This document shows positions 9,361-33,898 of a stretch of DNA of 64,000 bases, in pieces. Under the pieces are notes generated by a model. The model had not been told where the DNA came from. It ran no database searches and saw only the letters and a list, made by a program, of their open reading frames with translations. Source of the DNA: Siniperca chuatsi (taxonomy: Eukaryota > Chordata > Actinopteri > Centrarchiformes > Sinipercidae); the NCBI RefSeq assembly GCF_020085105.1, contig NC_058063.1, positions 12,367,651 to 12,431,650 on the forward strand, written 5' to 3'. The position numbers and the translations under genes were made by a program. The stretch's first letter is position 1. Each line of letters opens with the position of its first letter.

Positions 9361-9361
9361 C

Positions 9362-10460: not shown

Positions 10461-11400
10461 TGATGAAACACTTGTCAACAGTCCAGAAATTGACGTTTGA
10501 ACCAGGAAATAAAGACAAAATATTAAAATTCAAGGAATAGCAAATCCAAATTTCAGCACATTCTGGATGGGAGATTGGGGAAGCCTATAAGTCTTGTTTG
10601 AGTGCTTCAGCTGTGATGTTAGAACAAGGTTTGCGATGCATAATCTCTGTTGTCATATTTTCCCATCATCTCTCATATTTGTGATGTGCTTGTTCTCTCT
10701 CTAACTGTCACAGATCCTGTATCCCCGAGCCCAAAGAAGACCGTACAAAGTAAGTGCAACACAAATATTACTCACATATTCTTGAAATAACTATCAAGGC
10801 CCATATTTAAGAAACTGGTATAAGTGAAAATGCAACCTCGTCTCGCCGTAAATGTAAGAGGTTTTAGGTGGGCGGAGGAGAGAGAGAGTGGGGGAGAGGG
10901 AGTCCCCCTCCCTCTGCAGCATTCTTGGCAGCAGTACCCACATGCTCTTTGTGGCATGTCAAGGGCTGGATTATTTGTTATTTGCTATAGAGAATTAAAA
11001 TTGTCTTTGTCCTGTTGTGACAGAAGTGTCACTGCATTCACATGCACTTAAGAAACAGGGTAACTGCTTTCTGCAGACACCAGGGCTCATTTATCAAATT
11101 GCTTAAAGTGGACATTTAGACTTAAGTGAAAGATAAAACTAAAAATGATTCACTTTTACAAACACATATACACATGTAACAAAACCAATGTATCATATTT
11201 CCCTTGTATGAAGCCCTGGTCATGCTCACATGGACTGATAAATCTTTTAGACCATATTTGATAATAAGGTACTGTCTATCTGTATTTCTTTTCTGTCTGC
11301 TTCAAGAAGTGGCTTGTAAACAAATACTTGGGGGAGACAGTTGCAGGCCAGAAAGGGAAAGACTGGACGGTATGTTACAAAATAATGGACATTAACAAAT

Positions 11401-12005
11401 TGTCATAGTTAGAGGTTTTGTCCTGTTTCCTGTTTTATTTTGTAGCGTGCTCCTCTCCTCGTGTGTCTTGTCGTTTTACTTCCTGTCTTTGTTTGCTTTC
11501 CCTCCAGTTTTGAGTGTTGGCCGGGCCCCACCTTGATTGTTTGCACCTGTGTCTCGTTGTCTCCTTTATCTCAGTGTATTTAGTCTGTTATTTCCTTTAT
11601 TCATTGTCGGGTTGTTGCCTTTGTAATGTGCATTTTGGTTGTGCTTTGTTTCCGTGTCACGCATCCTGGATTTTGTTCCCTGTAAGTTTTGTCGGACTGA
11701 CTCCTTGTTTTCTTGGAACATGTCTGTATTGTGGATTTTTGTATTGGGCCTGCTCCCTGTCGGATGCGTTTGCCTTTGGACTTCTCTGTTTTGACCGCTG
11801 TCTGCCATGCTACACAAGCCAGCTGCCCGTCCTGTTCTGCCTGCCACGCTACTCCAGCCAAGCCGGAACCTACACTCCTCGTCTCCGTCCCCGGGGCCTT
11901 GTCGCTCTGGAAGAGCTCAGATCCCCCACTGTTTGCTTGCAGTTTATAATAAAAACGGTTGTTACCTCATCCACATACCACTTCCTTGTGTTCTGCATTT
12001 AGGTT
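11401..12005 (+). mobile_element. LTR-like fossil, solo, possibly Gypsy-related
   Basis: A roughly 0.6 kb piece that opens with tgtcatag, is pyrimidine-rich through most of its length, and near its end has ataaaaacggttgttacctc followed by ttgtgttctgcatttagg. This layout (TG start, C/T-rich body, late polyadenylation-like word, gttctgcattt end) resembles the long terminal repeats of fish Gypsy-like elements. There is no internal region, so it would be a solo remnant. It is present only in unit 1. The class assignment is tentative and no target-site duplication could be fixed. Confidence 0.4.
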
Positions 12006-12069
12006 ATAAAATCGTGCACAAAACCCAAAAAACTCACTTAAAGAGTGAGAGGGCATTAACTGATGCCTG

Positions 12070-12071
<2 letters not shown>

Positions 12072-12107
<36 letters not shown>
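12072..12107. repeat. (CT)18 microsatellite
   Basis: Thirty-six bases of uninterrupted CT dinucleotide, in the segment unique to unit 1. Confidence 0.95.
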
Positions 12108-12109
<2 letters not shown>

Positions 12110-13952
12110 CGCTTGACGCCCCTCCTGAACTCGCCGTGTTTTCGTCGTCAAAGTCCTGGTCGGAGCTGCTGTAAATCACTTTAATGCTGTATTCCATGTC
12201 GGCCCTGAGAACCTTCTCCTCTCAGCGGCAGAGCAGCTGGAGGACATCAGAGGAAAAAACAGAAAATAACTTAATCCTAAAATATGATTTGATGTTGCAA
12301 ATGCAGCTGCTGTGATGCAAGAAACATTTCAGACTCGATCTGACAAAGTATCATCATCCAGTTTCACCAAGATCAGTGAATAAAGTTATAAAAGTTAAAT
12401 CAAACATTCAATCTCAGCATTTTCATTTTAATATGGTCAGAGAATGCCCATACAAGTATATGAAAATTGGATTATTGCATTTTCATTTTTACTCAAATAA
12501 CATAAGTGTAAAATTATGATATTGTGGAATTACATTTTCAAGTTTACATTATCATTTGAATATAGTCCCATACAGTCCAGTCCTGTATGTGAATATATTT
12601 TATGTAGACCTACTGTAAGGTCATGTTTCAAATTTGCTGCATCTCTTCTGTGGTTATATTTGAGTCAGATGATTATTGCTTTATGTCTTGATTTTGAAAA
12701 CCTGCAATACAATGACCTTCGAGTGAGGGAGGAGCAAACCCACATTATATAAAAATTTTGGCTGCATCATTGCATCTTGAGCTTTTTTTCTGTTCAGCAG
12801 AATTGATATAGTTTTAAAAGTACTAGACAAAACTAATCTGCTATGATTTAATAAGTAAGTCAAAGGATCATCAACAATGTTTGATTGACAGGTGATCTCT
12901 AGGAGGTGCAATACAAAAACAACACAGGGATAGACCATGTAGGCAAAGATGTCACTGAAACTAAAAGCTATGCATCCTGACAATAAAAACTTAAAAATAG
13001 AACAACAGGATTGTCACTGCATATTTATTATGCTGCTAGCTACAGTAGCTAGGAAGCTCAATGACTCATAATGGGTAAGTGTCAAAAAACTTAAATAAAC
13101 TTGAATAAATTCATAATTTTTCATTGCTTAATTCATTCATCCATTGTTATGCCGCTTATTCGGGTCCATGTTGTATTCATTTATTTTTTTAATTATATCA
13201 TTGAGAATTATTCATATATACTGTTGGGAAGTACTAAAAAATGTGATATAATAACAAATCATTTTAGGCTGTATCGTCCCTACTGGTTTTCCATCATACT
13301 TTCATACTTTGGCCTCTTTGATCGTGTGGGGTATTAAAAAGGTATTACATTTTTTAAATTTAACTGGATGACCTAGCAGAAACCCTGTAAAAGCAGCTGC
13401 AGTTTACTTGTATTTATTACAATATGCTACAAAAAAACCTTTGAAAATTCTGTATTTTCCAAAAAAATACAGGTAGACATTCACCATTTATTAAATATAC
13501 TGATTTCAAACTGAATCATATTGATGTCATGGATTTGCACTTACTCAAAGGGAATATGAGGACATTAAACTGATATGATTTTCTTTTCTGTATCCATATA
13601 AAGAGCATTGTAGAATATTCTTACAATATGTTTGAATATGCAATTCCATAATCACATTTTTTTTTTCATTTTCTTGCATTTCTTCCTGCTCTATTACCAC
13701 CTCACTAGAACTCTCTATTGTCCTAACCTGTCAACTTGTGGAACTTGTTTCAACTATTCCCATAGGTGGAATGCACCAGCAACATGTCTCACAGGACAAA
13801 AGAAGGGAGTATGCCATAGTACTGAGCCAAGACAATGACAGATCAGAAATCCTGTGTTTAGTGATTTGGTTTTGTTCATCACTAAGGCGTCACAACATTT
13901 CTGAAAAATGTATCACATACACGTCATGTCATTAGCCTTTGTTCTGTTCCGA

Positions 13953-13961
13953 TATATAAAG
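13953..13961 (+). promoter_or_regulatory. TATA box of gene copy 1
   Basis: The word tatataaag in the context gttctgttccgatatataaa is placed about 30 bases before a plausible transcription start (near 13,985). It is followed by a short exon with a strong donor at 14,077. The same word and context are kept in copy 2 (38,842-38,850), whereas the surrounding non-coding DNA differs more, which supports function. The start site itself is inferred. Confidence 0.7.
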
Positions 13962-13984
13962 GCCTTAATAGATGTAGACTGTCA

Positions 13985-14076
13985 CATGAGAACTGGAAAG
14001 AATTAAAAGACACTGAAATAGTTTTAAACAAACAGATAGAAAAGGGGGAATTTATAACTTCATCCTTTCATTTTGG
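13985..14076 (+). other. Predicted non-coding exon 1 of gene copy 1
   Basis: The stretch from about 30 bases after the TATA box to the donor ttttgg/gtaagt at 14,077. It has no useful ATG in frame with the signal peptide and would be 5' untranslated leader. It is joined to the acceptor tttgattttatag/attc (AG at 15,350-15,351). Copy 2 has the matching exon and donor at about 38,875-39,002. The 5' end is inferred from the TATA box and no transcript is available. Confidence 0.55.
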
Positions 14077-15351
14077 GTAAGTACATTTTTAGTCTATATG
14101 TATGCTTTTGTACATTATATGTGTGTGTATACTTGTGTATCTGTTTAATAGTTGTGTGTTTAGTTATTTGTTGTACCAATAAATTCTATTAATAACCTCT
14201 GTCCTAATTTTAGGAAATGTTCATGCATTTCTATTTCATTATGAATTGTGTCATTATCACATATTTAAAGTGATAAGTGATTGTCACATAAAGTTAGTAA
14301 CATTTAGTTAGTAACAGTTTCTTTTGCTGAAGAATTTAAAACACAGTGTAATTTTGTCCCCATCTTTTTCAACCTCTCTTTTTGCAGCATGGTGAAAATG
14401 CAATGTTTTCAATGCAAACACACCAGCATGCTATTATTAAATTCAGATAAATAAATAAAAAAGTATAACATTTTAGAAAAAATAAACATGTGATAAAGTA
14501 TTGGTTCTTATAGGACTCTCTAGAGAAAATCAGTTAACAAGCGGTTTCCTCACTCAGTACACCTGCCTGTTCAAGTACTCTGCTTGTTGAGGTAGTGCAT
14601 GTAGACATGTATATTCCATCAGCTCTGACCTGGATAAGAGCTAATGGACAAATGGAGTGTAAAGAAAATAGAAACTTAATACATGAATATGGGAAGCAAA
14701 CATATTTCTCAGTGAGATGTGAAGACACAGGTGGAATTTGTCAGGCAGGGATTTACTTTTAGCAATAAATTCTGACACCTGACATCAACTTCAGTGATTT
14801 TATTACAATTACTGTATTTTGCCAATATACCACATTCATTCAAATGTTGTAAAATATAATAATATAGATTAGTTTCAAAGGAGTGAAAGTTGCATTTTAT
14901 CACAGTCATTTCACAGAGTAAAATACACAGTATATGGTTCAGGATACAGATTATTATGGAGGGGGAAACATACTGTTTAATAATAGTTATTTGCATCAAA
15001 CCTTTTACCTCTGGATGTTTTTTGTACATTGAGTTATAAAGGCTACTAGTACTCCTGTAATGAATTCAATCTTTTGCAGATTGAATACTGTAAACTCAGA
15101 GGAATTAAGTTCTTTTTTAAAGACCTCTTTTTCATTTAAAACTCTTGTGGAAAAATAAATTCAGGTAAAGTTTTGATTGTTGTACATATTGTTTCATCTA
15201 TTAAAGATTTTCTAAATACATTGTATTCTCTCATGGACTCCAACATTAACAACATTGACAAAGTAATGATTATGGTAGCCAGTAACTGTAGTGAAAAATG
15301 GTTACACATGCTGCTTCTGTGAATAAGTCTCTGTATTGTTTGATTTTATAG
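14077..15351 (+). other. Intron 1 of gene copy 1 (no gene inside)
   Basis: Lies between donor gtaagt at 14,077 and the acceptor AG at 15,350-15,351. AT-rich; the short minus-strand frames at 14,534-14,728 and 14,709-15,029 have no domain. The first is intact in copy 2 (39,460-39,654) only because the sequences are duplicates. Confidence 0.55.
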
Positions 15352-15411
15352 ATTCAAAGGCAAACAAGATGGGTGTTGGACGAAACATATCAATTTTCCT
15401 GATTCTAATAG
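15352..15411 (+). CDS. Exon 2: start codon and signal peptide, copy 1
   Basis: The ATG at 15,369 opens M-G-V-G-R-N-I-S-I-F-L-I-L-I, and the exon ends in phase 1 at the donor g/gtaagc (15,412). The next exon completes it as V-A-M-D-V-A-T-R-R. This gives a basic residue at position 5, a hydrophobic core of about ten residues and a likely signal-peptidase site shortly after A-M-D-V-A, so the protein enters the secretory pathway. The first 17 bases of the exon are untranslated. The exon is identical in protein to copy 2. The frame found further upstream in the next exon (from 15,658) is intronic and is not the start. Confidence 0.8.
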
Positions 15412-18400
15412 GTAAGCTAAGTGATGTTAAACCGGATGAGTGACTTGAGTGACTTGATACAACCTGATATCGTACTGTGAAGCAAAAGCTTTGTATTCAT
15501 AGTTACAAAGAGTTTAATGTACCCTTTACACTACTTTAGAACAGTGATAGAAAAGTTTTTAAAATATAACATTGTGTATTGTAGCAGATGTATAACATTA
15601 CATGAGGGTATTCTTAATAGGAATAGGAATAGGAAGTGAAAAATTGGCCATTTTGGAATGAATTGTTCCACGTTTTGTTCATTGACAATAGTTGCTATGG
15701 ATGTGGCAACGAGACGAGCAGCTGCACAAGCTGCTACAAATGCTCCAACAACGACAACAGCAACAACTACACCTGCTCCAACAACAACAACTGTGGTAAC
15801 AACTACACCTGCTCCAACAACTACAACTGCCTCAACAACAACCCATGCTCAGACAACGACAACTGCGGCAACAACTACACCTGCTCCAACAACAACGACA
15901 ACTGCCACAACAACAATACCTGATCCAAAAACATCGACAGCGACAACAACAACACCTGCTCCAACAACAACGACTGCGGCAACAACTACACCTGCTCCGA
16001 CAACAACGACAACTGCCTCAACAACTACACCTGCTCCAACAACAACGACTGCTTCAACAACAACAACTGCTCCGACAACGACAACTGCGGCAACAACTAC
16101 ACCTGCTCCAACAACAACGACTGCGGCAACAACAACACCTGCTCCGACAACGACAACTGCCTCAACAACAACACCTGCTCCAACAACCACGACAGCGACA
16201 ACAACAACACCTGCTCCAACAACAACGACTGCGGCAACAACTACACCTGCTCCAACAACAACGAAAAATGCGGCAACAACTGCACCTGCTCCGACAACAA
16301 CGACAACTGCCTCAACAACTACACCTGCTCCAACAACAACGACTGCGGCAACAACAACACCTGCTCCGACAACGACAACTGCAGCAACAACAACACCTGC
16401 TCCGACAACGACAACTGCGGCAACAACTACACCTGCTCCAACAACAACAAATACAGCAACAACTACACCTCCTCCAACAACAACAAGTGTGGCAACAACA
16501 ACTACAGCAGCAACCACTACACCTGCTCCAACAACAACAAATACAGCAACAACTAAACCTCCTCCAACAACAACAAGTGTGTCAACAACAACGACAGCAG
16601 CAACAACTACTTCTGCTCTGACAACGACAATGACAGCAACAACAACTACACCTGCTCCAGCAACAACAAGTGCGGCAAAAACAACAACAGCAGCAACAAC
16701 TACTTCTGATCTGACAACGACAACTGCGGCAACAACAACACCTGCTCCAACAACAACGACTGCTACAACAACAACACCTGCTCAGACAACGACAACTACA
16801 GCAACAACAACACCTGCTCCAACAACCACGACTGCGGCAACAACAACACCTGCTCCAACAACAACGACTGCTGCAACAACTACACCTGCTCAGACAACGA
16901 CAACTACAGCAACAACAACACCTGATCCAACAACCACGACTGCGGCAACAACAACACCTCCTACAACAACAACAAGTGTGGCAACAACAACGACAGCAGC
17001 AACAACTACTTCTGCTCTAACAACAACAATGACAGCAACAACAACTACACCTGCTCCAGCAACAACAAGTGCGGCAAAAACAACAACAGCAGCAACAACT
17101 ACTTCTGATCTGACAAAGACAACTGCGGCAACAACAACACCTGCTCCAACAACAACGACTGCGGCAACAACAACACCTGCTCCAACAACGACAGCAGCAA
17201 GAACAACTACACCTGCTCCAACAACAACAAGTGCAGCAACAACTACACCTGCTCCGACAGCAGCAACAACTACTTCTGCTGTGACAACGACAGCAACAAC
17301 AACACCTGCTCCAACAACAACAGCAGCAACAACAACTACACCTGCTCCAACAACAACAAGTGCAGCAACAACTACACCTGCTCCGACAACAACGACAGCA
17401 GCAACAACTACACCTGCTCCAACAACAACAGCAGCAACAACAACTACTTCTGCTCTGACAACGACAGCAACAACAACACCTGCTCCAACAACCACGACTG
17501 CGGCAACAACAACACCTGCTCCAACAACAACAGCAGCAACAACAACTACACCTGCTCCAACAACAACAAGTGCAGCAACAACTACACCTGCTCCGACAAC
17601 AACGACAGCAGCAACAACTACAACTGCTCCAACAACAACAGCAGCAACAACAATACCTGGTCCGACAACAACAACAGCAGCAACAATTACACCTGCTCCA
17701 ACAACAACAACAGCAACAACAACTACACCTGCTACAACAACTGAAGCAACAACTACACCTTCTCCGACAACAACGACAGCAGCAACAACAACTACTTCTG
17801 CTCCAACAACAACAACTACAGCAACAACTACACCTACTCCAACAACAAGTATGTCAACAACGACAACTACAGCAACAACACCTGCTCCAACAACCACGAC
17901 CGTGGCAACAACAACACCTGCTACAACAACAACGACTGCTGCAACAACTACACCTGCTCCAACAACGAGAACTGCAGTAACAACAACACCTGCTCCAACA
18001 ACCACGACTGCGGCAACAACAACACCTGGTCCAACAACAACAGCAGCAACAACATCTACACCTGCTCCAACAACAACAACTGCAGCAACAACTACACCTT
18101 CTCCGACAACATCGACAGCAGCTACAACTACACCTGCTTCAACAACAACAACTTCATCAACAACAACACCTGCTCCGACAACAACGACAGCAGCAACAAC
18201 TACACCTGCTCCAACAACGACAACTACAGCAACAACAACACCTGCTCCAACAACAACGACTGCTGCAATAACGACAGCAGCAACAACTACTTCTGCTCTG
18301 ATAACGACAACGACAGCAACAACTACACCTGCTCCAACAACGACAACTGCTGCAACAACAACACCTGCTCCAACAACAACGACTGCTGCAACAACGACAC

Positions 18401-21400
18401 CTGCTCCAACAACGAGAACTACAGCAACAATAACACCTGCTCCAACAACAAGTGTGTCAACAACAACTACACCTGCTCCAACAACGACAACTACAGCAAC
18501 AACAACACCTGCTCCAACAACCACTAGTGCGCCGACAACAACAACACCAGCAACAACTACTTCTGCTCTGACAACGACAACGACAGCAACAACAACTACA
18601 CCTGCTCCAACAACGACAACTGCTGCAACAACAACACCTGCTCCAACAACAACGACTGCTGCAACAACGACACCTGCTCCAACAACGAGAACTACAGCAA
18701 CAACAACACCTGCTCCAACAACAACAAGTGTGGCAACAACAACTACACCTACTCCAACAACAACAACTACAGCAACAACACCTGCTCCAACAACAACTAG
18801 TGTGCCGACAACAACAAGTACAGCAACAACTACTTCTGCTCTGACAACGACAACGACAGCAACAACAACTACACCTGCTCCAACAACGACAACTGCTGCA
18901 ACAACAACACCTGCTCCAACAACAACGACTGCTGCAACAACGACACCTGCTCCAACAACGAGAACTACAGCAACAACAACACCTGCTCCAACAACCACGA
19001 CTGCGGCAACAACAACACCTGCTCCAACAACAACAGCAGCAACAACAACTACACCTGCTCCAACAACAACAACTACAGCAACAACTACACCTGCTCCAAC
19101 AACGACAGCAGCAACAACAACTACACCTGCTCCAACAACAACAACTACAGCAACAACAACACCTGCTCCAACAACCACGACTGTGGCAACAACAACACCT
19201 GCTCCAACAACAACAGCAGCAACAACAACTACACCTGCTCCAGCAACAACAACTGCAGCAACAACTACACCTTCTCCGGCTACAACGACAGCAGCTACAG
19301 CTACACCTACTTCAACAACAACAACGTCATCAACAACAACACCTGCTCCAACAACAACGACAGCAGCAACAACTACACCTGCTCCGACAACAACAACAGC
19401 AGCAACAACTACACCTGCTCCATCAACAACAACTGCTGCAACAACAACACCTGCTCCAACAACGACTGCTGCAACAACGACACCTGCTCCAACAACGACA
19501 ACTACTCCAACAACAACGACTGCTGCAACAACGACACCTGCTCCAACAACGACAACTACAGCAACAACAACACCTGCTCCAACAACAACAAGTGTGGCAA
19601 CAACAACTACACCTACTCCAACAACAACAACTACAGCAACAACAACACCTGCTCCAACAACAACTAGTGCGCCGACAACAACAACAGCAGCAACAACAAC
19701 TTCTACTCTGACAACGACAACGACAGCAACAACAACTACACCTGCTCCAACAACGACAACCGCTGCAACAACAACACCTGCTCCAACAACAACGACTGCT
19801 GCAACAACGACACCTGCTCCAACAACGACAACTACAGCAACAACAACACCTGCTCCAACAACCACGACTGTGGCAACAACAACACCTGCTCCAACAACAA
19901 CAGCAGCAACAACAACTACACCTGCTCCAGCAACAACAACTGCAGCAACAACTACACCTTCTCCGACTACAACGACAGCAGCTACAGCTACACCTACTTC
20001 AACAACAACAACGTCATCAACAACAACACCTGCTCCAACAACAACGACAGCAGCAACAACTACACCTGCTCCGACAACAACAACAGCAGCAACAACTACA
20101 CCTGCTCCATCAACGACAACTGCTGCAACAACAACACCTGCTCCAACCACGACCGTGGCAACAACAACACCTGCTACAACAACAACGACTGCTGCAACAA
20201 CTACACCTGCTCCAACAACGACAACGACAGCAACAACAACACCTGCTCCAACAACAACGACAGCAGCAACAACTACACCTACTCCAACAACAACAGCAGC
20301 AACAACAACTTCACCTGCTCCGACAACAACAACTACAGCAACAACTACACCTGCTCCAACAACGACAAATGCAGCAACGACAACTATAGCCACAATGACA
20401 CCTGCACGAACAACAACGACTACAGCAATCACTACACCTGCTCCGACAACAACAACAGCAGCAACAACTACTTCTGCTCTGACAACGACAACGACAGCAA
20501 CAACAACTACACCTGCTCCAACAACGACAACTGCTGCAGCAACAACACCTGCTCCAACAACAACGACTGCTGCAACAACGACACCTGCTCCAACAACGAC
20601 ACCTGCTCCAACAACGACAACTACAGCAACAACAACACCTGTTCCAACAACCACGACCGTGTCAAAACAACACCTGCTACAACAACAACAACGACTGCTG
20701 CTGCAACAACTACACCTGCTCCAACAACAACGAGAACTGCAGTAACAACAACACCTGCTCCAACAACAACGACTGCTGCAACAACGACACCTGCTCAGAC
20801 AACGACAACGACAGCAACCACTACACCTGCTCCAACAACCACGACTGCGGCAACAACAACACCTGGTCCAACAACAACAGCAGCAACAACATCTACACCT
20901 GCTCCAACAACAACAACTTCATCAACAACAACACCTGCTCCGACAACAACGACAGCAGCAACCACTACACCTGCTCCAACAACGACAACTACAGCAACAA
21001 CAACACTTGCTCCAACAACAACTAGTGCGCCGACAACAACAACAGCAGCAACAACTACTTCTGCTCTGACAACGACACAACGACAGCACAGCAACAACAA
21101 CTACACCTGCTCCAACAACGACAACTGCTGCAACAACAACACCTGCTCCAACAACAACGACTGCTGCAACAACGACACCTGCTCCAACAACGACAACTAC
21201 AGCAACAACAACACCTGCTCCAACAACAACAAGTGTGGCAACAACAACTACACACTACTCAACAACAACAACTACAGCAACAACAACACCTGCTCCAACA
21301 ACAACTGGTGCGCCGACAACAACAACAACAGCAGCAACAACTACTTCTACTCTGACAACGACAACGACAGCAACAACAACTACACCTGCTCCAACAACGA

Positions 21401-24400
21401 CAACCGCTGCAACAACAACACCTGCTCCAACAACGACAACTACAGCAACAACAACACCTGCTCCAACAACCACGACTGTGGCAACAACAACACCTGCTCC
21501 AACAACAACAGCAGCAACAACAACTACACCTGCTCCAGCAACAACAACTGCAGCAACAACTACACCTTCTCCGACAACAACGACAGCAGCTACAACTACA
21601 CCTACTTCAACAACAACAACGTCATCAACAACAACACCTGCTCCAACAACAACGACAGCAGCAACAACTACACCTGCTCCAACAACAACAGCAGCAACAA
21701 CAACTTCTTCTGCTCCAACAACAACAACTACAGCAACAACTACACCTGCTCCAACAACGACAAATGCAGCAACGACAACTATAGCCACAATGACACCTGC
21801 TCCAACAACAACGACTGCAGCAACCACTACACCTGCTCCGACAACAACAACTACAGCAACAACTACTTCTGCTCTGACAACGACAACGACAGCAACAACA
21901 ACTCCACACCTGCTCCAACAACAACACAACTGCTCCAACAACAACACCTGCTCTAACAACAACAACACACCTGCTCCTGCAACAAACCTGCAACAAACAA
22001 CACCTGCTCAACAACAACGACAACTACAGCAACAACAACACCTGTTCCAACAACCCGACCGTGGCAACAACAACACCTGCTACAACAACAACAACGACTG
22101 CTGCAACAACTACACCTGCTCCAACAACGAGAACTGCAGTAACAACAACACCTGCTCCAACAACAACGACGACTGCTGCAACAACGACACCTGCTCAGAC
22201 AACGACAACGACAGCAACAACAACACCTGCTCCAACAACCACGACTGCGGCAACAACAACACCTGGTCCAACAACAACGACTGCTGCAACAACTACACCT
22301 GCTCCAACAACGAGAACTGCAGTAACAACAACACCTGCTCCAACAACAACGACTGCTGCAACAACGACACCTGCTCAGACAACGACAACGACAGCAACCA
22401 CTACACCTGCTCCAACAACCACGACTGCGGCAACAACAACACCTGGTCCAACAACAACAGCAGCAACAACATCTACACCTGCTCCAACAACAACAACTTC
22501 ATCAACAACAACACCTGCTCCGACAACAACGACAGCAGCAACAACTACACCTGCTCCAACAACGACAACTACAGCAACAACAACACTTGCTCCAACAACA
22601 ACTAGTGCGCCGACAACAACAACAGCAGCAACAACTACTTCTGCTCTGACAACGACAACGACAGCAACAACAACTACACCTGCTCCAACAACGACAACTG
22701 CTGCAACAACAACACCTGCTCCAACAACAACGACTGCTGCAACAACGACACCTGCTCCAACAACGACAACTACAGCAACAACAACACCTGCTCCAACAAC
22801 AACAAGTGTGGCAACAACAACTACACCTACTCCAACAACAACAACTACAGCAACAACAACACCTGCTCCAACAACAACTGGTGCGCCGACAACAACAACA
22901 GCAGCAACAACTACTTCTACTCTGACAACGACAACGACAGCAACAACAACTACACCTGCTCCAACAACGACAACCGCTGCAACAACAACACCTGCTCCAA
23001 CAACGACAACTACAGCAACAACAACACCTGCTCCAACAACCACGACTGTGGCAACAACAACACCTGCTCCAACAACAACAGCAGCAACAACAACTACACC
23101 TGCTCCAGCAACAACAACTGCAGCAACAACTACACCTTCTCCGACTACAACGACAGCAGCTACAGCTACACCTACTTCAACAACAACAACGTCATCAACA
23201 ATAACACCTGCTCCAACAACAACGACAGCAGCAACAACTACACCTGCTCCAACAACAACAGCAGCAACAACAACTTCATCTGCTCCGACAACAACAACTA
23301 CAGCAACAACTACACCTGCTCCAACAACGACAAATGCAGCAACGACAACTATAGCCACAATGACACCTGCTCCAACAACAACGACTGCAAAAACCACTAC
23401 ACCTGCTCCGACAACAACAACAGCAGCAACAACTACTTCTGCTCTGACAACGACAACGACAGCAACAACAACTACACCTGCTCCAACAACGACAACTGCT
23501 GCAACAACAACACCTGCTCTAACAACGACGACTGCTGCAACAACGACACCTGCTCCAACAACGACAACTACAGCAACAACAACACCTGTTCCAACAACCA
23601 CGACCGTGGCAACAACAACACCTGCTACAACAACAACGACTGCTGCAACAACTACACCTGCTCCAACAACGAGAACTGCAGTAACAACAACACCTGCTCC
23701 AACAACAACGACTGCTGCAACAACGACACCTGCTCAGACAACGACAACGACAGCAACAACAACACCTGCTCCAACAACCACGACTGCGGCAACAACAACA
23801 CCTGGTCCAACAACAACAGCAGCAACAACATCTACACCTGCTCCAACAACAACAACTGCAGCAACAACTACACCTTCTCCGACAACAACGACAGCAGCTA
23901 CAACTACACCTGCTCCAACAACAACAACTTCATCAACAACAACACCTGCTCCGACAACAACGACAGCAGCAACAACTACACCTGCTCCAACAACGACAAC
24001 TACAGCAACAACAACACCTGCTCCAACAACAACTAGTGCGCCGACAACGACAGCAGCAACAACTACTTCTGCTCTGACAACGACAACGACAGCAACAACA
24101 ACTACACCTGCTCCAACAACGACAACTGCTGCAACAACAACACCTGCTCCAACAACAACGACTGCTGCAACAATGACACCTGCTCCACCAACGACAACTA
24201 CAGCAACAACAACACCTGCTCCAAGAACTACACCTGCTCCGACAACAACGACAGCAGCAACAACTACTTCTGCTCTGACAACGACAACGACAGCAACAAC
24301 AACTACACCTGCTCCAACAACGACAACTGCTGCAACAACAACACCTGCTCCAACAACAACGACTGCTGCAACAACGACACCTGCTCCAACAACGACAACT

Positions 24401-27400
24401 ACAGCAACAACAACACCTGTTCCAACAACCACAACCGTGGCAACAACAACACCTGCTACAACAACAACGACTGCTGCAACAACTACACCTGCTCCAACAA
24501 CGAGAACTGCAGTAACAACAACACCTGCTCCAACAACAACGACTGCTGCAACAACGACACCTGCTCAGACAACGACAACGACAGCAACAACAACACCTGC
24601 TCCAACAACCATGACTGCGGCAACAAACACACCTGGTCCAACAACAACAGCAGCAACAACATCTACACCTGCTCCAACAACAACAACTGCAGCAACAACT
24701 ACACCTGCTCCGACAACAACGACAGCAGCAACAACTACACCTGCTCCAACAACGACAACTACAGCAACAACAACACCTGCTCCAACAACAACTAGTGCGC
24801 CGACAACAACAACAGCAGCAACAACTACTTCTGCTCTGACAACGACAACGACAGCAACAACAACTACACCTGCTCCAACAACGACAACTGCTGCAACAAC
24901 AACACCTGCTCCAACAACAACGACTGCTGCAACAATGACACCTGCTCCAACAACGACAACTACAGCAACAACAACACCTGCTCCAAGATCTACACCTGCT
25001 CCGACAACAACGACAGCAGCAACCACTACAACTGCTCCAACAACGACAACAACAACACCTGCTCAAACAACGACAACTGCAACAACAGCGACAACTATAG
25101 CAACAACGACACCTGCTCCAACAACTACAACTACAGTAACAACAACACCTGCTCCAAGAACTACACCTGCTCCGACAACAACGACAGCAGCAACAACTAC
25201 ACCTCCTCCAACAACAACAAGTGTGGCAACAACAACGACAGCAGCAACAACTACTTCTGCTCTGACAATGACAACGACAGCAACAACTACACCTGCTCCA
25301 ACAACAACAACTGCATCAACAACAACAACTGCATCAACAACAACACCTGCTCCAACAACAACGACAGCAGCAACAACTACTTCTGCTCTGACAATGACAA
25401 CGACAGCAACAACTACACCTGCTCCAACAACAACAACTGCATCAACAACAACACCTGCTCCAACAACAACGACAGCAGCAACAACAACACCTGCTCCAGC
25501 AACAACAAGTGCGGCAACAACAACAACAGCAGCAACAACTACTTCTGATCTGACAACGACAACTGCGGCAACAACTACACCTTCTCCAACGACAACGACT
25601 GCTACAACAACTACACCTGCTCCAACAACTACAACTACAGCAACAACAACACCTGCTCCAACAACTACACCTGCTCCAACAACAACAACTGAAGCAACAA
25701 TTACACCTTCTCCGACAACAACGACAGCAGCAACAAATACACCTGCTCCAACAACAACAACAGCAGCAACAACAACTACTTCTGCTCCAACAACAACAAC
25801 TACAGCAACAACTACACCTACTCCAACAACAAGTATGTCAACAACGACAACTACAGCAACAACTACACCTGCTCCAACAACAACAAGTGCAGCAACAACT
25901 ACTTCTGCACTGACAACGACAACTGTGTCAACAACATCACCTGCTCCAACATCTACAACTACAGCAACAACAACACCTGTTCCAAAAACCACGACTGTGG
26001 CAACAACAACACCTGCTCCAACAACAACAGCAGCAACAACAACGCCTGCTCCGACAACAACGACAGCAGCAACATCAACTACACCTGCTCCAACAACTAC
26101 AACTACAGCAACAACACCTGCTCCAAGAACCACACCTGCTCCGACAACAACGACAGCAGCAACCACTACAACTGCTCCAACAACAACAACAACAACACCT
26201 GCTCAAACAACGACAACTGCAACAACAGCGACAACTATAGCAACAACGACACCTGCTCCAACAACTACAACTACAGCAACAACAACACCTGCTCCAAGAA
26301 CTACACCTGCTCCGACAACAACGACAGCAGCAACAACTACACCTGCTCCAACAACAACAACTTCATCAACAACAACACCTGCTCCGACAACAACAACAGC
26401 AGCAACAACAACTGAAGCAAAAACTACACCTTCTCCGACAACAACAACAGCAGCAACAACAACTACTTCTGCTCCAACAACAACAACTACAGCAACAACT
26501 ACACCTACTCCAACAACAAGTATGTCAACAACGACAACTACAGCAACAACTACACCTGCTCCAACAACAACAAGTGCAGCAACAACTACTTCTGCACTTA
26601 CAACGACAACTGTGGCAACAACATCACCTGCTCCAACAACTACAACTACAGCAACAACAACACCTGTTCCAATAACCACGACTGTGGCAACAACAACACC
26701 TGGTCCAACAACAACAGCAGCAACAACAACTACACCTGCTCCAACAACAACAACAACTTCAGCAACAACACCTGCTCCAACAACAACGACAGCAGCAACT
26801 ACACCTGCTCCAACAACAACAACTACAGCAACAACAACACCTGCTCCGACAACAACGACAGCAACAACAACTACACCTGCTCCAACAACTACAACTACAG
26901 CAACAACAACACCTGCTCCAAGAACTACACCTGCTCCGACAACAACGACAGCAGCAACAACTTCACCTGCTCAAACAACGACAACAACACCTGCTCAAAC
27001 AACGACAACTGCAACAACAACGACAACTATAGCAACAACGACACCTGCTCCAACAACAACTACAGCAGCAACCACTACACCTGCTCCAACAACAGCATCA
27101 ACAACTACACCTGTTCCAACAACAACAACTACAGCAACAACTACACTTGCACCGACAACAACGACAGCAGCAACAACTACACCTGCTCCGACAACGACAG
27201 CAGCAAAAACTACACCTGCTCAAACAACGACAACTGCGGCAACAACGACACCTGCTCCAACAACAACGACAGCAGCAACAACTACTTCTGCTCTGACAAC
27301 AACAACTGCAGTTGCTCCTGCACCTTTGTATGCTATCTCAATAAACTTGCAAGCAGAACCTTTTTCAGCTGACCTTCTTGACACCACCAACATTCGATTC

Positions 27401-29892
27401 AAAAATCTTAAAAACGAGTTGAAGACACGGTGAGTAATTCTTTAAACTGAACCCATATTTCATTGACCATGTCGGTTTTGTGCATGAATGATTGGACAGA
27501 AAATTTTAGCTGAAGGAGAAATCTGACAAGCTAAAAAGTAATATCAGTTAAATGTGCCTTTGTTCATTTCCTTTGGAGACAATTGTGCTTGAAATCTACT
27601 CAAGGTCTTTCAATGTTGCTTTCTTTTTGCAGTGCAATATCATATACAAACGAAAATTTGGTGATCAGTTTGACCGGTGCATTTTGAAACAGTTCAGGTA
27701 AAAATATTTTTCTAACAGTGGTTTACTGATTTTGCTTTACATCTGGTCTTAAATTGGTATTTTCTAATGTTGATAGTGTCATGTGTGGAAATCACCCATG
27801 AAAACCAGCAGAATCGTCTCATATTATTGGTTGACATTTGGTTTTATGACACAGGCCTATTCCACCTCCATCTCGAGTGGATGGAACTCAAGTAGATCTG
27901 GATCTTTTGTTTACTCGGACAACTCCCACTGCAAATCTCCCACTGAATAGCGTTGTTGCTCAAACCTTAGTAGAAGCTGTGAATAATTCTACCAATAACT
28001 TCAGTGTGAGCATAAATCCCAACACAGTCCAAATACTAGGTAAGTAAACACAACAGAATGTTTCACTCTTATCAGTATGTAAAACATCTGAAATAACATG
28101 TGCTACTCATGCTCTGTTTTGAAATAATTATGTTGCTACACAAGAAATGGAAGTATAGACAAGATTCATAAAGACAACATTAATAGTGTTCAATGTTGTA
28201 CATTTCAGTCCAAATGTTCAACAGTGTGGCAGGATGAGCCATACCTTGTATTCAGTCAGAATTCTAGTTACATAAATAATTTGTTATTAACTGTAAGATT
28301 TTTGACATTAGCAACTTCAGAACTAGACAAGATGCTAAAAAGTCTCCAAATCCAATTCTTTCTATACCTTTTATGATAGCCATTAAAAGTCAGCGAAACT
28401 GGCACCAAATTCAGTTTTTTCTTCAAACAAGGATAAAGGAATCCTTTTGGCTTGGGCACAAAAACTTATTTATTCTTTTCAAACATTTTTTTACAGCAGG
28501 TCCAGTTCCAGATGCATCTACAACTGCTGCACCTACAACTGCTGCACCTGCAACTGCTGCACCTGCAACTGCTGCACCTACAACTGCTGCACCTACAACT
28601 GCCGCACCTACAACTGTAGCATTCATAACAACAAGGGTGACTTTCAGATCTCTTCAAAGCACTTTTATAAGTGACTTGCTGAATCCATCATCTGCAGCTT
28701 TTAGAAATCGAGCTTCAGTGATAAAGACACAGGTAAGTCTCACCCTAAGAATAACATCTGCTGGTACATCTACTGAATTATTTTATCAGAGAGCTCAAGC
28801 CCCTACTTAAAGAACTGAAATGTTATGGTGACACTTACAGTATACAGCCAATACTCTATTTATTATTTACTTCTGTGTTTTTATAGGCTTCGCAAAATAT
28901 TAGTGTTAACACCATTTTTCCCAAACTTTTGTTTTCCAGTAATTAACCAGTATTCACAAAAATACTATAATATATTTTCTTTTTCTCCAAAGAGCGCAAT
29001 TGTTAATGTTGTTCCCCATAGTCTTGTTTACAGTTAGTACTTTATTGGTACTTGATTCATTCAACAAAATTACACTGTAAATTGTGTACAGGCTGTATTA
29101 TAAAGTGTTTCCAATGTTACAATTTGTTTCTGCACTATACAAAGTACAGAAAACACAAGAAAAATAAAAACAGGAAATTAGGAAACACTGATCTTCACGC
29201 TTGCTAGACAGTCTACATACTATATATAAAAAGTTCACTTATTCAGATTTACAGAAGGAATTGATGCCAGAGACATCAAGGGGAAAATATCAAGACAAAT
29301 AAAACTACACCTCCAGCTTGCTGTACAACTTATATCATATACACACAGTTCAGTGTTCTAAGGCAAACACAGAAGTAAAAAGTGTTTAAATACAATTTGT
29401 TTTCTTTTTCTGCAGCTTGAACCTATTTTCCAAAGGGCATTCCCTTCCTCATTCAAGTCCTTGGACGTGGTGTCATTCAGGTAATTTCTTAAGACTTATC
29501 GTATTACAATTTAAGAGTAGTGGCTTAAATGAGATATCTCAAACAATATCTTTTGTTTCTCCTTCTGCAGAAAAGGATCAGTCATCAACGAAATGAACCT
29601 TCGCTTTGCAAGCACAAACGTTCCTAATATCACACCTATTTTGATCAGTGCAGCTTCAAACGTCACTGGCTTCGACATTGACAGCAGCTCCATCAACGTG
29701 AATGGCTTATGTAAGCAATATTGTGTGCTACTTCATCAAAAGTTTCAAAAAGTTGAACAACTGTTTATTAAACTAATGTTTTGTTTCCTTTTCTCCTTAT
29801 TTACAGCTTCAAGTGGAGTAAGCCACAAGATCAGTCTCCTCACTGCATCCTGCCTGGTACTGTTGTCATGGCTACTGTCAAGCCAACAATAG
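15369..29892 (+). CDS. SEA-domain, GPI-type mucin-like gene, copy 1 (whole coding span)
   Basis: Eight coding exons joined by GT-AG introns: 15,369-15,411; 15,692-27,429; 27,633-27,697; 27,855-28,039; 28,500-28,732; 29,416-29,480; 29,571-29,710; 29,807-29,892. Order of the product: short signal peptide, Thr/Ala/Pro-rich array from the giant exon, SEA domain 1, a short Thr-Ala-Pro linker, SEA domain 2 with a G-S-V-I cleavage motif, and a C-terminal hydrophobic tail of GPI-signal type. Exon lengths sum to 12,555 nt, a multiple of three. By analogy with other SEA mucins the product would be an O-glycosylated surface coat. Two problems keep it from reading through here: the array changes frame near 20.66, 21.08 and 21.90-22.06 kb, and the giant exon ends one base short of the phase required by the next exon. 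No known gene name fits with confidence; the family is recognised only as SEA mucin. Confidence 0.75.
15412..15691 (+). other. Intron 2 of gene copy 1
   Basis: 280 bases between donor gtaagc and the acceptor attgacaatag at 15,690-15,691. Nothing else is seen inside. Confidence 0.75.
15692..27429 (+). CDS. Giant mucin exon of copy 1 (Thr/Ala/Pro array)
   Basis: An 11,738-nt exon coding a nearly pure repeat of the 12-residue unit T-P-A-P-T-T-T-T-A-A-T-T (36 nt), about 58% Thr, 25% Ala and 17% Pro, with occasional Ser, Val, Arg, Gln or Gly variants. Dense Thr next to Pro is the signature of mucin PTS domains, which become heavily O-glycosylated, extended rods. The first residues after the signal (T-R-R-A-A-A-Q-A-A-T-N) are non-repetitive. 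The last 110 bases leave the array and start SEA domain 1 (L-Y-A-I-S-I-N-L-Q-A-E-P-F-S-A-D-L-L). Codons start at positions 1 modulo 3 from 15,692 to about 20,660, change frame to about 21,080, return to about 21,900, and from 22,061 run open in a different frame to 27,429. The donor gtgagt is at 27,430. Confidence 0.8.
15745..27305 (+). repeat. 36-nt tandem array with higher-order structure, copy 1
   Basis: Base unit is acacctgctccaacaacaac followed by gact-gcg/gct-gca-aca-aca variants. Sub-types recur in a set order, for example S-A-L-T-T-T-T, P-A-Q-T-T-T-T, P-G-P-T-T-T, P-S-P-T-T-T-T, P-A-S-T-T-T-T-S-S and P-A-P-T-T-R-T-A-V, so blocks of about 13 to 20 units have been copied as larger segments. 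The plus strand is almost entirely A and C. The same sub-types occur in the array at 55,735-64,000. Confidence 0.95.
27633..27697 (+). CDS. SEA domain 1, middle exon, copy 1
   Basis: A 65-base exon between acceptor ctttttgcag and donor gtaaaa. Read from its first base it codes C-N-I-I-Y-K-R-K-F-G-D-Q-F-D-R-C-I-L-K-Q-F-R, the typical SEA central helix and strand (…IY+++F…F…I…FR). It has the same length and phases as the equivalent SEA 2 exon (29,416-29,480). To read this frame the previous exon must end on a codon boundary, but here it ends two bases into a codon, so the continuous translation would hit a stop within 18 codons. Confidence 0.75.
27855..28039 (+). CDS. SEA domain 1, C-terminal exon, copy 1
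   Basis: 185 bases, acceptor acacag at 27,854, donor g/gtaagt at 28,040. Codes P-I-P-P-P-S-R-V-D-G-T-Q-V-D-L-D-L-L-F followed by the second SEA helix pair and V-N-N-S-T-N-N-F-S-V-S-I-N-P. The cleavage position, which in SEA 2 is G-S-V-I, is replaced by a Pro-rich, Arg-Val-Asp-Gly loop, so this domain should not self-cleave. N-N-S, N-S-T and N-F-S are possible N-glycosylation sites. Confidence 0.75.
28500..28732 (+). CDS. Linker and SEA domain 2, first exon, copy 1
   Basis: 233 bases. Starts with P-V-P-D-A-S, then six and a partial seventh copy of the pentapeptide T/A-T-A-A-P (15-nt repeat, 28,520-28,624), then V-A-F-I-T-T-R-V-T-F-R-S-L-Q-S-T-F-I-S-D-L-L-N-P-S-S-A-A-F-R-N-R-A-S-V-I-K-T-Q, the N-terminal strand and helix of a SEA domain. 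It ends on a codon boundary at the donor gtaagt (28,733). The acceptor is a tandem cagcag; use of the upstream AG would add one residue in frame. The small array is a short stalk between the two SEA domains. Confidence 0.75.
28733..29415 (+). other. Intron between SEA 2 exons, copy 1
   Basis: 683 bases of AT-rich sequence with no gene, RNA or repeat recognised. Confidence 0.65.
29416..29480 (+). CDS. SEA domain 2, middle exon, copy 1
   Basis: 65 bases, acceptor tttctgcag and donor gtaatt. Codes L-E-P-I-F-Q-R-A-F-P-S-S-F-K-S-L-D-V-V-S-F-R with the first two bases of the last Arg. Same size and phase as the SEA 1 exon at 27,633, indicating that the two domains arose by exon-set duplication. 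Confidence 0.8.
29571..29710 (+). CDS. SEA domain 2, cleavage exon, copy 1
   Basis: 140 bases, acceptor ccttctgcag, donor t/gtaagc. Begins K-G-S-V-I-N-E-M-N-L-R-F-A-S, so with the preceding exon the protein reads F-R-K-G-S-V-I. This matches the SEA autoproteolysis site (Gly-Ser-Val-Val/Ile, as F-R-P-G-S-V-V-V in MUC1), where the chain is cut between Gly and Ser during folding and the halves stay bound. The rest is the last helix pair and strands, with N-I-T and N-V-T as possible N-glycosylation sites and ending S-S-I-N-V-N-G-L. Confidence 0.8.
29807..29892 (+). CDS. Last exon: GPI-type C-terminal signal, copy 1
   Basis: 86 bases including the stop TAG at 29,890. Codes S-S-S-G-V-S-H-K followed by I-S-L-L-T-A-S-C-L-V-L-L-S-W-L-L-S-S-Q-Q. 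Small residues (S-S-S-G), a short polar spacer and a hydrophobic run of about 15 residues at the very end with no cytoplasmic tail are the layout of a GPI-attachment signal. The alternative, a tail-less membrane segment, is less likely. The protein would therefore sit on the outer face of the plasma membrane. Confidence 0.75.
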
Positions 29893-30850
29893 CATCAAGT
29901 GCTGATTTCCATTTGAATTGCTATCAGAACATGACTGCCATCACTGGTATGAAAAAGGACTTGAACTGAACACATTTCTGTTTGGGAACGTCCAGGATCC
30001 TGGGCCGGGCAGCATGACACAGCCAACTTTAAGCACCTGGTCCATTTAATCATCACTAGAATAATAAGCCAAACAATATAACAGCACTTTGTATTAAGCC
30101 CTGGGATGTCAGAAAATAATTGCACTATTTCACTATTAATGTAAAATGTATAAATGCATCTTGCTTCTCTGAGCACTGTGCTACAGCAATATTTAACTGT
30201 GTCAATTTCTAATGCTGTCTTCTTTAGTCTTGTTCACCAAACAAGACTCTTACTATTGTCTGAATGCAGTTTATATTTAAACATGCAGATTGAGAAATCT
30301 GAATGCTAGATTTCAAACTGGACTGTTTGTAAAGTTAGTCTTCATCAAGATGGGTCAAGATAGGCATAAGCAAATATTATTTACTTTCCAAATGCATGTA
30401 AAATTTCACTTGCTATATTGCACTTGGTTTCACTTGCTAACATAGCAGCTTCACAGCTCCACAGAGAGCATATTAGAAAGGGAACAAGTGTTAAATTAAA
30501 TGAAGGAACACATGCAGCTCATAGTGGGCTGCGCACCTCAACCTTGAACCAATGCAAAATTTTATCAAAGGTCATGGTATACATTATATATATGTCAAAA
30601 CAATGCACTGTCCATTTTCTTATTTATACAAAGTGTATTTATGTAATTATGCATAGCTGTATTCTGTGAGACTTCTTGTAGTTTGTACAATGTCTGTCAG
30701 AAACTTTACAATGATCAGAATACAAAATCTTTTTATATTTAATCTTTAAAATGTCTCTCGTGTGATGTTGTGTATATTTAATGTCAGAAGCTTCTCTGAT
30801 CATCTCTGATGATGTTTACAGACAATAAAACCCTGCCTATAATTCAATTT
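29893..30850 (+). other. Predicted 3' untranslated region, copy 1
   Basis: Follows the stop codon and runs to about 20 bases past the polyadenylation signal. No further gene is seen; short frames are AT-rich chance frames. Confidence 0.6.
30824..30829 (+). terminator. Polyadenylation signal of gene copy 1
   Basis: AATAAA in the context acagacaataaaaccctg, about 0.93 kb after the stop codon, followed within 30 bases by a T/G-rich stretch (gcctttgttgtgt). It is the most convincing signal between the stop codon and the unit junction. Confidence 0.6.
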
Positions 30851-31498
30851 CGCAATAGCCTTTGTTGTGTCAGTAAATCAGGTTTGTTCAGAACGAGAGA
30901 ACTGGCAGTGGTGCATAGTTCACATTGGCTATGAGATTGGTATTTATTCAGATACTGCCAGACAGTCTGAGAGATGTGTTGTTCTTAAATCACCTCAAAC
31001 TCAGAGTAACCTCAAAACCAGCATCAACCACTGTCAGAGTTCATTTACATATGTTGTGTTTATATATTAGGACATCATCATTGTATTTATTTTAGGACAT
31101 TTTTTCATTTGTTGTCAGTAAGTTATAATTAGAGAAAGATAATAAAATAACAATAACAATTTCTGGAGTGTTATTTACCTTAAAACTTGACACAAAATGT
31201 GATAAACAATTTAATTAAACAATTTAACGTCCATCTTACGGCTTCAGGCTGCTCATCAGAAATGCTGCTGGCCACTTGAGAATGCTGATGCACAAACAGT
31301 ATGTCAGTGTTTTTTACATTTGGAAGACTGTGCCTCTAATACCTGCTTCCTTTTTTCAAATTTTTTAAACCCTCCTTTACTTTTTGACATTTTCTTGTCC
31401 ATCCTTCTTGTTGGCCATCTCACTGCTGAGCGCTACTTTTGCAGAATGTGCACCAGAGACTTCCGCCGGCCGAGCCAGCTAACTTCCATGGTCATCAT
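30850..31498. other. Gene-free end of duplicated unit 1
   Basis: Sequence between the 3' end of copy 1 and the junction with unit 2 at 31,498/31,499. Nothing recognised. The last 60 bases are GC-richer and have no relation to the transposase sequence that precedes 4,939 in unit 1. Confidence 0.6.
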
Positions 31499-32126
31499 CA
31501 TATATGTCAGAGATGATGTGTTCTTTCTGTGACCTTTGGTGTCTATAGCTCATGCTGTTTTGGATCTGAGGGTTTTCAAGCAGTGCCTGAATTTGAGGTG
31601 CAATTGGTATGTAAGCTTGCACTGTTAAAGGAAGATATTTCAATTGGAGCACTACAGATTTCACACTGTGCAATGTTTTTGTCTTTATGTCTTCTCACGT
31701 GCCAATGTATATTTCACAGGGTTGCAGTTGAAGTGGAACTCCATTATGTCCGAGTTGTTTTTAAAGACCTCGTTGAACAAATATTTTGATCTGGGTAACA
31801 CCTCTTTGCCAAAAGAGAATATTTATGAGCTTTAACAGATTAAACAGACTGACATTAGTACTGAATCCATGTATGAAGACATGTCTGTCTGAATGGATCA
31901 TCTTCTGAAGATCTTCAATTTCTGAATCAACTCCAGAAATACTGCCTTCAGATGAGGAATCACAATCAAAGTGTTGGGTGATGTCACTTGGGTGCAGCTC
32001 AGATGTAAGGAGAAAGTGACCAGATGAAGACATGAGCTGCAAAACAACAAAGAACACACATTCATGAGTGCATGTGTCTACATACAATGACAGTGAACCC
32101 AGAAATGTATGACTAACCAGTGTCAC
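31499..32126 (-). mobile_element. Truncated transposase remnant (N-terminal part only)
   Basis: Copy of the 5' part of the transposase at 4,939-5,570. The minus strand again carries the acidic Ser-rich lead and the block ending S-D-I-Y, after which homology stops exactly at the unit junction and the frame runs into unrelated residues (D-D-D-H-G-S). It cannot be active. Confidence 0.7.
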
Positions 32127-33843
32127 ACAACTGGCTGTGCGCTGCCCTCACCTCAACATTTGCGCAGCTTGAACCTGGTCTGACTTTACGTCATTTTCTC
32201 TGCAGTTGTCAGTAAGAGGCAGTACCTGAAGGCATGGAGAAGCATTTAGAAAACAATTTCAACAAATGCAACAAACTGCATTAAAAAATGAAGGCTCAGA
32301 AAAGCAGGACAAGTTGTGAATAAATTGTGAACCAGGATTAAGCTGTTTCATAAAGCTAATTTAGAACTAATACGATCAGGTTAATTCAAGCTTGATTTTA
32401 AAAAGGTACCCTGTGAATTTTTTTTACCTCTAGTAACACTATGGGACAATTTTTTTATGAGTGGGTTTTGTTTGTACATGCAGAATGCAATACACAGCCT
32501 GTGTATGTGTAATGTCCTCTTTTCAGTCTTGCACGGGTAATTTAACTGTTAGTAATTTGTACTTGCATTTTGACATTCTAAAATTTAAAAAAATGGACAT
32601 CATTAACAGATTCATGAATAACAGGATGGTGAATATAAACAATAATTGGGTTAAAAGCTGAGCCTCATACAACCACTGACTGTACAAAGTTAACCAGCCA
32701 TTTACCAACTTGATGACTTGGATTATAGCACTAATACAAAGTGTGTCATACACTCAGTTGCCAGTTTATTAGGTACACTAATGCAGCCTAATACAACAGT
32801 CCTGCAATAACCTCTCCCTTCATGAAGGTTATAATACCCAGTTATTGTTGAAACTGCTTTAGAGAGGTGTTGATTCAACTTTATTATCATTTTGAAGGCT
32901 GCAGTTTGTGGTGCTGTTCAACTGTATTGTGTTATACAGGAGGTTTTCTGTTATTTAGCCTAAACTGATATACAGTACTAAGAAATAGTAAGTGAACCCC
33001 TTAGATTTCCCTGCATTTTTGCTTAATTTATTCATAAAATGTGGTCTGATATTCTTCAGTCACAATAATGGACAATGATAAATATTATTTGAATGGACAA
33101 CTTCCTTATAAAAGGTTGCAGCTTGTCTGGATCTTGCTCCCAAAGAGTAACACAGGATGACCAAGTTATCGACTTTGGTCGATTAAAGCATTGTCAAATT
33201 ATCATGAAAAAATGTTGCTTTATGAGGAAAAAGATATGATTGCCATCGTTTTTCAGTGCAATACATAGTTCGATAACACATACAGAAGAATAAAAGCATT
33301 TACTTTGATAGATGAGCCATGTGTTAGCCTACTTTGCAAAACCTTGTTGATAAAATAACAATACTAAAACGATAAATTAAACAATAATGTTATATTTTTC
33401 ATTTACTCAGGCGAAATCGAAGTGTAGTATTGAAGGTCCACCTTCACCAAAGGCATGCGCGCTCCCGCGGCCAGGGCACACTTCCTATCGTGGGTAATTA
33501 CCTGGCGTGACACCTGTCAACGAGCGATTCTGCTCCTCTGCTCTTTTAAAATCACACAGAGCTGCTTTTTTATAATAACCTCTTGAATTTATAACTTAAA
33601 GCTTTGTATGTGTTTCTGCGGGGAGGCCCTTCTTCTGCAACGATGAAGTTAAAAGGATCGCCTTATTCCAAATATGTGGAATAAGTAAGTCAATTAAAAA
33701 ACACAATCACAAACAGCAGTGATACTGTTTCTAATAAATATAGTGGATGGGCAGATCTTGATATTTCATCGGGGAGGGGGCGGTCACTCCAGGAGAACAG
33801 GAGGGAGTGAGGCAGAGAAATCAATCAATCCATGATCATTTAT

Positions 33844-33846
<3 letters not shown>

Positions 33847-33890
<44 letters not shown>

Positions 33891-33898
33891 ATTCATAT
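33847..33898. repeat. (AT)26 microsatellite
   Basis: Fifty-two bases of uninterrupted AT at the position that has only ten AT units in unit 1 (7,294-7,313). Confidence 0.95.

Follow-up and report, generated by a model that had tools for sequence, protein, structure and literature searches.

The stretch of DNA analysed here, 64,000 nucleotides of contig NC_058063.1 (hereafter the window, numbered from its first letter), carries on its forward strand a giant Thr-rich repeat array, two SEA domains, the exon layout of a mucin gene, its C-terminal tail sequence and a duplicated 5' region. We refer to the mucin gene as gene A, with array A and the domains SEA1 and SEA2, to its second copy as copy B, with array B and tail B, and to a third repeat array as array C.

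Exon layout of gene A

The gene plan of gene A is largely real. An earlier note on this DNA had described it as complete, which is only half supported: the TATA box, probable leader, signal exon, array, SEA pair, tail and AATAAA can be recognized, but the frame is broken at six places as assembled. The features of gene A are the following.

13951–13964, forward strand: TATA-like element, GATATATAAAGGCC, exact match
13981–14076 (start approximate), forward strand: probable leader exon, non-coding, read by eye, with donor GTAAGT at 14077
15352–15411, forward strand: signal exon (exon 2), with the ATG at 15369, encoding MGVGRNISIFLILI
15692–27429, forward strand: array exon A (exon 3; 11,738 bases), Thr/Ala/Pro repeats, ending at the donor GTGAGT at 27430
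20650–22055, forward strand: frame-switch block inside array A, five switches; differs by small indels from a sibling block lying about 1.57 kb further downstream
27311–27429, forward strand: first part of SEA1, at the 3' end of the array exon, before the donor GTGAGT at 27430
27633–27697, forward strand: exon 4, middle of SEA1, recognizable as SEA only in a phase other than the one set by the donor at 27430
27855–28039, forward strand: exon 5, end of SEA1, from splice-site reading and Pfam
28497–28732, forward strand: exon 6, short Thr/Ala/Pro linker (tandem repeat 28513–28616) and start of SEA2
29416–29480, forward strand: exon 7, middle of SEA2, from splice-site reading
29571–29710, forward strand: exon 8, end of SEA2, with FRKGSVINEM where the autoproteolysis motif would sit
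29807–29892, forward strand: exon 9, coding part, ending in SSSGVSHKISLLTASCLVLLSWLLSSQQ and a stop; tail resembling a glycosylphosphatidylinositol (GPI) signal
30824–30829, forward strand: polyadenylation signal AATAAA, read from the sequence

Within the window, GATATATAAAGGCC occurs only at 13951 and 38840 (mean 0.00 over 100 shuffles), and the first 24 coding bases of the signal exon only at 15369 and 40470; the leader-exon donor of gene A likewise recurs in copy B. Exon 2 is joined to the array exon at 15692 in phase, and a hydropathy peak of 2.86 over 12 residues (MGVGRNISIFLILI continued by VAM...) spans this join. Exons 4–9 have GT–AG borders and read in a single frame down to the stop, the last base of which is 29892.

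Composition of array A

The Thr array extends from 15692 to about 27310. Its Thr frame is frame 1 until about 20.64 kb and frame 2 from about 22.04 kb, and it contains two stop-free stretches of 1,649 and 1,746 residues. These consist of 57.8 and 58.5% Thr and 20.4 and 19.2% Ala, respectively, with 14.1% Pro and 3.3% Ser, so that the term 'Thr-only' in the earlier note was too strong. SEA-type membrane mucins have a long array rich in Pro, Thr and Ser, usually within one large exon; array A is rich in Thr, Ala and Pro and poor in Ser. The spacings of the motif CCTGCTC are multiples of three in 213 of 219 cases, and all six exceptions start between 20602 and 22003. Introns as the cause of the frame switches were considered and rejected: in its interior, the block differs from one sibling block only by indels of 1–12 bases.

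Exact repeats of up to 257 bases are found within array A (15692–27310) at offsets of, for example, 1,570, 1,580, 3,178 and 831 bases, as higher-order block duplication would give. On the minus strand, a stop-to-stop frame of 1,342 codons runs antisense to the array at 16890–20918; it is probably a by-product of the repeat composition.

The SEA domains

The presence of two SEA domains, as claimed in the earlier note, was borne out by a search with the SEA-family profile. With PF01390, SEA1 scored 30.6 bits and SEA2 40.6 bits against the Pfam curated cut-off of 26.4, SEA1 passing only when entered with X across a frame slip; queried separately, its first piece gave no SEA match and its second 16.8 bits. 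The SEA2 match covers profile positions 4–76 of 106. In a search of the PDB, the best match of SEA2 was the SEA region of ADGRF1, a weak one (8hc0, E 0.002; 7wxu, E 0.0045), and SEA1 had no match. The Pfam search gave no EGF match for the SEA pieces.

The slip lies where the array exon meets exon 4. The donor at 27430 leaves two bases over, and a join at a codon border is needed for exon 4 to read as SEA; no alternative in-phase donor was seen by eye near 27.43 kb. The corresponding junction in SEA2 is in phase.

The C-terminal tail

The hydrophobic stretch ISLLTASCLVLLSWLL at the C-terminus is followed by SSQQ and the stop, i.e. by four residues, none of them basic, and no transmembrane domain with a cytoplasmic tail was found in the gene A product. 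The complete tail reads GLSSSGVSHK-ISLLTASCLVLLSWLL-SSQQ*, with the small residues SSSG ahead of the hydrophobic stretch. A C-terminal signal for GPI attachment comprises small residues, a spacer and a hydrophobic end, with no cytoplasmic tail. The gene A tail presumably fits this rule of thumb, SSSG standing at what we take to be a GPI-like distance, and from its sequence GPI anchoring of the gene A product is plausible, if unproven. The GPI-type tail of the earlier note thus holds as a hydrophobic C-terminus that ends at the stop and has no cytoplasmic tail, the assignment to GPI itself being putative.

It is quite improbable that the C-terminus is instead a short-tailed transmembrane anchor or that the protein is released, since past the hydrophobic stretch there are only those four residues, none basic, and SSSG lies upstream at a presumably GPI-like distance. 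What speaks for such an anchor is ISLLTASCLVLLSWLL itself, placed before SSQQ and the stop, as well as the fish and human SEA mucins, which in the available parts of two sources are described as transmembrane (PMC3680472; PMC9578598).

Copy B and the low-quality stretch

The second copy contributes the following features.

38840–38853, forward strand: TATA-like element of copy B, exact match of GATATATAAAGGCC
40470–40512, forward strand: coding part of the signal exon of copy B, with the first 24 coding bases equal to those of gene A
40793–42000, forward strand: readable start of array B, a single open frame of 402 residues by frame analysis
42001–55700, forward strand: low-quality stretch, in which array B continues frame-scrambled to about 52.7 kb and a degraded tail copy occupies about 52.74–55.7 kb, from frame, alignment and GG/CC statistics

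Upstream of array B, four 5' blocks keep 92.7–97.4% identity to copy A, counted by substitutions; in particular, 13431–14785 matches 38283–39711 (97.4%) and 14783–15690 matches 39934–40778 (93.2%). The signal exon and the array are joined in phase in both copies. Array B stays in frame for about 1.2 kb (40.79–42.0 kb) and is abruptly scrambled beyond, with 95 of 249 spacings out of frame over the whole array. The 3 kb behind it align end to end with tail A at 59% column identity, with a local score of 1014 against 258–310 for eight single-base shuffles. As for protein, tblastn with the SEA pieces across the whole window gave, outside gene A, only three chance-level matches (E 0.57, 3.7 and 9.8), none of them in 52.7–55.7 kb, and tail B retains little of the counterpart of the SEA1 start (36 of 119 bases matched). 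A second complete gene in copy B is unsupported, most of the array and the entire tail being unreadable as protein. The tandem duplication proposed in the earlier note therefore stands for the 5' end, including the TATA element and signal exon, and is unsupported for most of the array and the whole of the tail.

The manner in which tail B is degraded was characterized by two statistics. A global alignment of 52.742–55.690 kb with tail A contains 345 mismatches and 374 gap runs (ratio 0.92), and the observed/expected value of GG/CC in this segment is 0.44. Taken by parts, GG/CC is 0.28–0.54 in four tail-B sub-blocks. For comparison, 20 blocks elsewhere, away from the main arrays, have 0.76–1.26, and the block with 0.76 extends about 0.8 kb into array A. 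Drift simulated to a similar identity, with 35 or 40% substitution in three runs each, gave mismatch/gap ratios of 2.2–3.1 and GG/CC of 0.92–1.08, and simulated noisy reads (six runs) gave 0.86–1.37 and 0.67–0.83, respectively. The mismatch/gap ratio of tail B fits noise best. Degradation of tail B is about as strong in its coding parts (0.602) as in its introns (0.57). The stretch at 42.0–55.7 kb looks like uncorrected long-read sequence, for example a gap fill, a cause that we infer.

Coding status and origin of the frame breaks

We interpret gene A as an animal, probably vertebrate, gene for a cell-surface SEA mucin that is likely GPI-anchored, with frame breaks that are most likely assembly damage, and assign this reading a rough probability of 0.6. 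The frame switches of array A, the slip where the array meets SEA1 and the scrambled 42.0–55.7 kb would most likely be assembly or consensus errors, not mutations. In the mechanism that we propose, exon 2 would begin a signal peptide by which the protein enters the secretory pathway, and exon 3 would provide a giant, Thr/Ala/Pro-rich O-glycosylation array of about 3,900 codons, forming a stiff rod if it is O-glycosylated. The two SEA domains encoded across exons 3–8 may constitute a folded, membrane-proximal base, and the hydrophobic tail from exon 9 would most likely direct GPI anchoring. The product would be a long, stiff, sugar-coated rod tethered at the outer leaflet of the membrane; O-glycosylation, GPI transfer and a barrier function are inferred from this design.

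Three features make the case for coding: signal exon and array are joined in phase, array A continues without a frame change to where SEA1 begins, and two SEA domains are present. The overall reading is also favoured by the GT–AG borders and single frame of exons 4–9, by the two long stop-free stretches of array A with their mostly in-frame spacings, and by the recurrence of TATA region and signal exon in copy B.

Several findings weigh against this reading. The Thr frame of array A passes through the order 1, 0, 1, 2, 0, 2, i.e. five switches, all within about 20.65–22.05 kb, and the single open exon frame of 11.7 kb proposed in the earlier note is rejected on this ground. The array-to-SEA1 junction is out of phase, a stop following after 17 codons as spliced; with the five switches, this slip leaves gene A as assembled broken in six places. 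The open length of the array is weak evidence for coding because the Thr frame seldom mutates to a stop: in the first open stretch only 0.41% of single substitutions create one, against 3.1% and 6.9% in the two remaining forward frames. Among singly changed codons between eight paired array blocks, the synonymous share is 253/466 = 0.543 versus 0.329 expected, the latter computed with transitions weighted twofold, but with CpG contexts removed it falls to 112/317 = 0.353 versus 0.329 and the excess is nearly gone; therefore, constraint on the array is not demonstrated, and codon-level purifying selection on it is unsupported. The in-frame spacing of the repeats can also be explained by whole-unit duplication. 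As regards tail B, simulated heavier drift (50% substitution) gave mismatch/gap ratios of 1.22–1.57, near the noisy-read range, if with GG/CC of 0.98–0.99, and the observed GG/CC of 0.44 lies below both simulation models. Finally, autoproteolytic SEA domains bear a GSxxV motif (PMC9478142, available in part). Some SEA mucins possess this motif, others do not. It is only partial in SEA2, where GSVIN is found, and SEA1 lacks a GS at this position, so that autoproteolytic cleavage of either domain is doubtful.

Part of this evidence would suit arrays that are chiefly expanding CAA-type satellite DNA, adjoining the SEA exons by chance and with an incidental coding frame: outside CpG contexts the synonymous excess is almost nil, stops are rare through codon composition alone, and identical segments as long as 257 bases return, for instance, 1,570 and 831 bases apart, in the pattern of block duplication. 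Such an origin is extremely improbable, as signal exon and array are joined in phase in both copies, the array runs into the start of SEA1 without a change of frame, a second, smaller Thr/Ala/Pro linker precedes SEA2 and 213 of array A's 219 spacings keep the frame.

The frame breaks themselves could be real, gene A then being a decaying pseudogene, or one such allele, and gene B an older dead copy. The five switches and the SEA1 phase slip of the assembled sequence are what such decay would predict, and the coding parts of tail B are barely better preserved than its introns (0.602 versus 0.57). Nevertheless, we regard real decay as rather unlikely. The five switches in array A are confined to one block of about 1.4 kb, flanked by about 4.9 and 5.3 kb that are clean; the mismatch/gap and GG/CC values of tail B are atypical for drift at that identity; and, in contrast to tail B, the four 5' blocks of copy B retain 92.7–97.4% identity to copy A by substitutions, the scrambling of array B beginning abruptly. 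With assembly damage as the preferred explanation, the locus exemplifies how mucin arrays defeat assembly, so that copy number, length and frame are untrustworthy from one assembly.

Array C and the flanks

One further feature, not mentioned in the earlier note, lies at the end of the window.

55730–64000 (runs off the window), forward strand: third Thr/Ala/Pro array, resembling array A and not preceded by a leader or signal exon

When array C is cut into 27 tiles of 300 bases, the median of their best identities is 96.6% against array A and 77.6% against clean array B; in the reverse comparison, 38 tiles of array A gave a median best identity of 88.3% to array C. Eight of its 148 spacings are out of frame. 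A colinear copy of array A is unsupported, as the best matches jump around; array C may be a third gene, a part of another haplotype or a misjoin.

A direct duplicate of 4.7 kb (4936–9650 and 31496–36208) is 99.55% identical by substitutions, closer than the four neighbouring duplicated blocks (92.7–97.4%). Candidate explanations are a mobile element and a converted block; four open reading frames examined there gave no Pfam match at E 0.1. Within the duplicated 5' flank, about 2.5 kb are present only in copy 1 (9651–12226) and about 0.8 kb only in copy 2 (37123–37953), possibly as insertions. As for other genes, no Pfam family scored above cut-off in 13 flank open reading frames, drawn from 69 stop-to-stop frames of at least 70 amino acids (two extend into an array). 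Rfam at gathering thresholds and a transfer RNA scan with bacterial settings each returned 0 matches in the window.

Comparison with known SEA mucins

The closest parallel in layout is the human MUC3A/MUC3B/MUC12/MUC17 cluster of neighbouring SEA-type membrane mucins, as described in the available part of PMC9578598. There, exon 2 of MUC3B, which encodes the Pro/Thr/Ser (PTS) domain, measures 39,267 bp and the SEA domain follows; MUC3A and MUC3B are highly alike, and MUC3B was recognized in a newer assembly (PMC9578598). Gene A resembles this cluster in its neighbouring copies and in one very long array exon followed by SEA, and differs from it in having two SEA domains and no cytoplasmic tail. 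Given the exon size and neighbouring genes of the MUC3 cluster, an 11.7 kb array exon with adjacent duplicates is ordinary for SEA mucins.

Among fish, I-Muc of the gilthead sea bream is a membrane mucin that has a SEA domain and lacks a clear orthologue in mammals; compared by description only, it has a transmembrane domain and a cytoplasmic tail, unlike gene A (PMC3680472, in its available part). Fugu Muc13 and a MUC1-like protein are further fish SEA mucins. Muc13 of chicken, man and mouse carries EGF domains, whereas the SEA pieces of gene A have no EGF match, and the PTS domain of Muc13 is divided over several exons in chicken and zebrafish (PMC1552070, in its available part). IMPG1 and IMPG2 also have two SEA domains of which only the second resembles the autoproteolytic sequence. 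They differ in being proteoglycans, in a SEA-2 with the full GSxxV and, for IMPG2, in being transmembrane, and a giant Thr array is unmentioned in the available part of that source (PMC9478142). With ADGRF1, an adhesion G-protein-coupled receptor, only the SEA part aligns with SEA2 of gene A.

Gene A is thus probably a SEA mucin of known kind, with serious problems of sequence quality and a single unusual trait, namely a tail that lacks a cytoplasmic part. In MUC1-type mucins the cytoplasmic tail has a signalling role. If the gene A tail is confirmed, SEA mucins can do without a transmembrane segment and cytoplasmic tail, and the barrier role of the rod would be separable from signalling by the tail. 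Among the matches listed in a literature search, no GPI-anchored mucin with SEA domains is described in titles or abstract beginnings, a weak negative with partial coverage of the literature. We tentatively suggest, at odds somewhat below even, a lineage of GPI-anchored SEA-pair mucins in a tandem cluster of two or three genes, the arrays of which exchange and expand by blocks of about 0.8–1.6 kb. If so, SEA mucin rods of about 4,000 residues would also exist in a lipid-anchored, tail-less and probably uncleaved form, beside the transmembrane and often self-cleaving kind of mammals.
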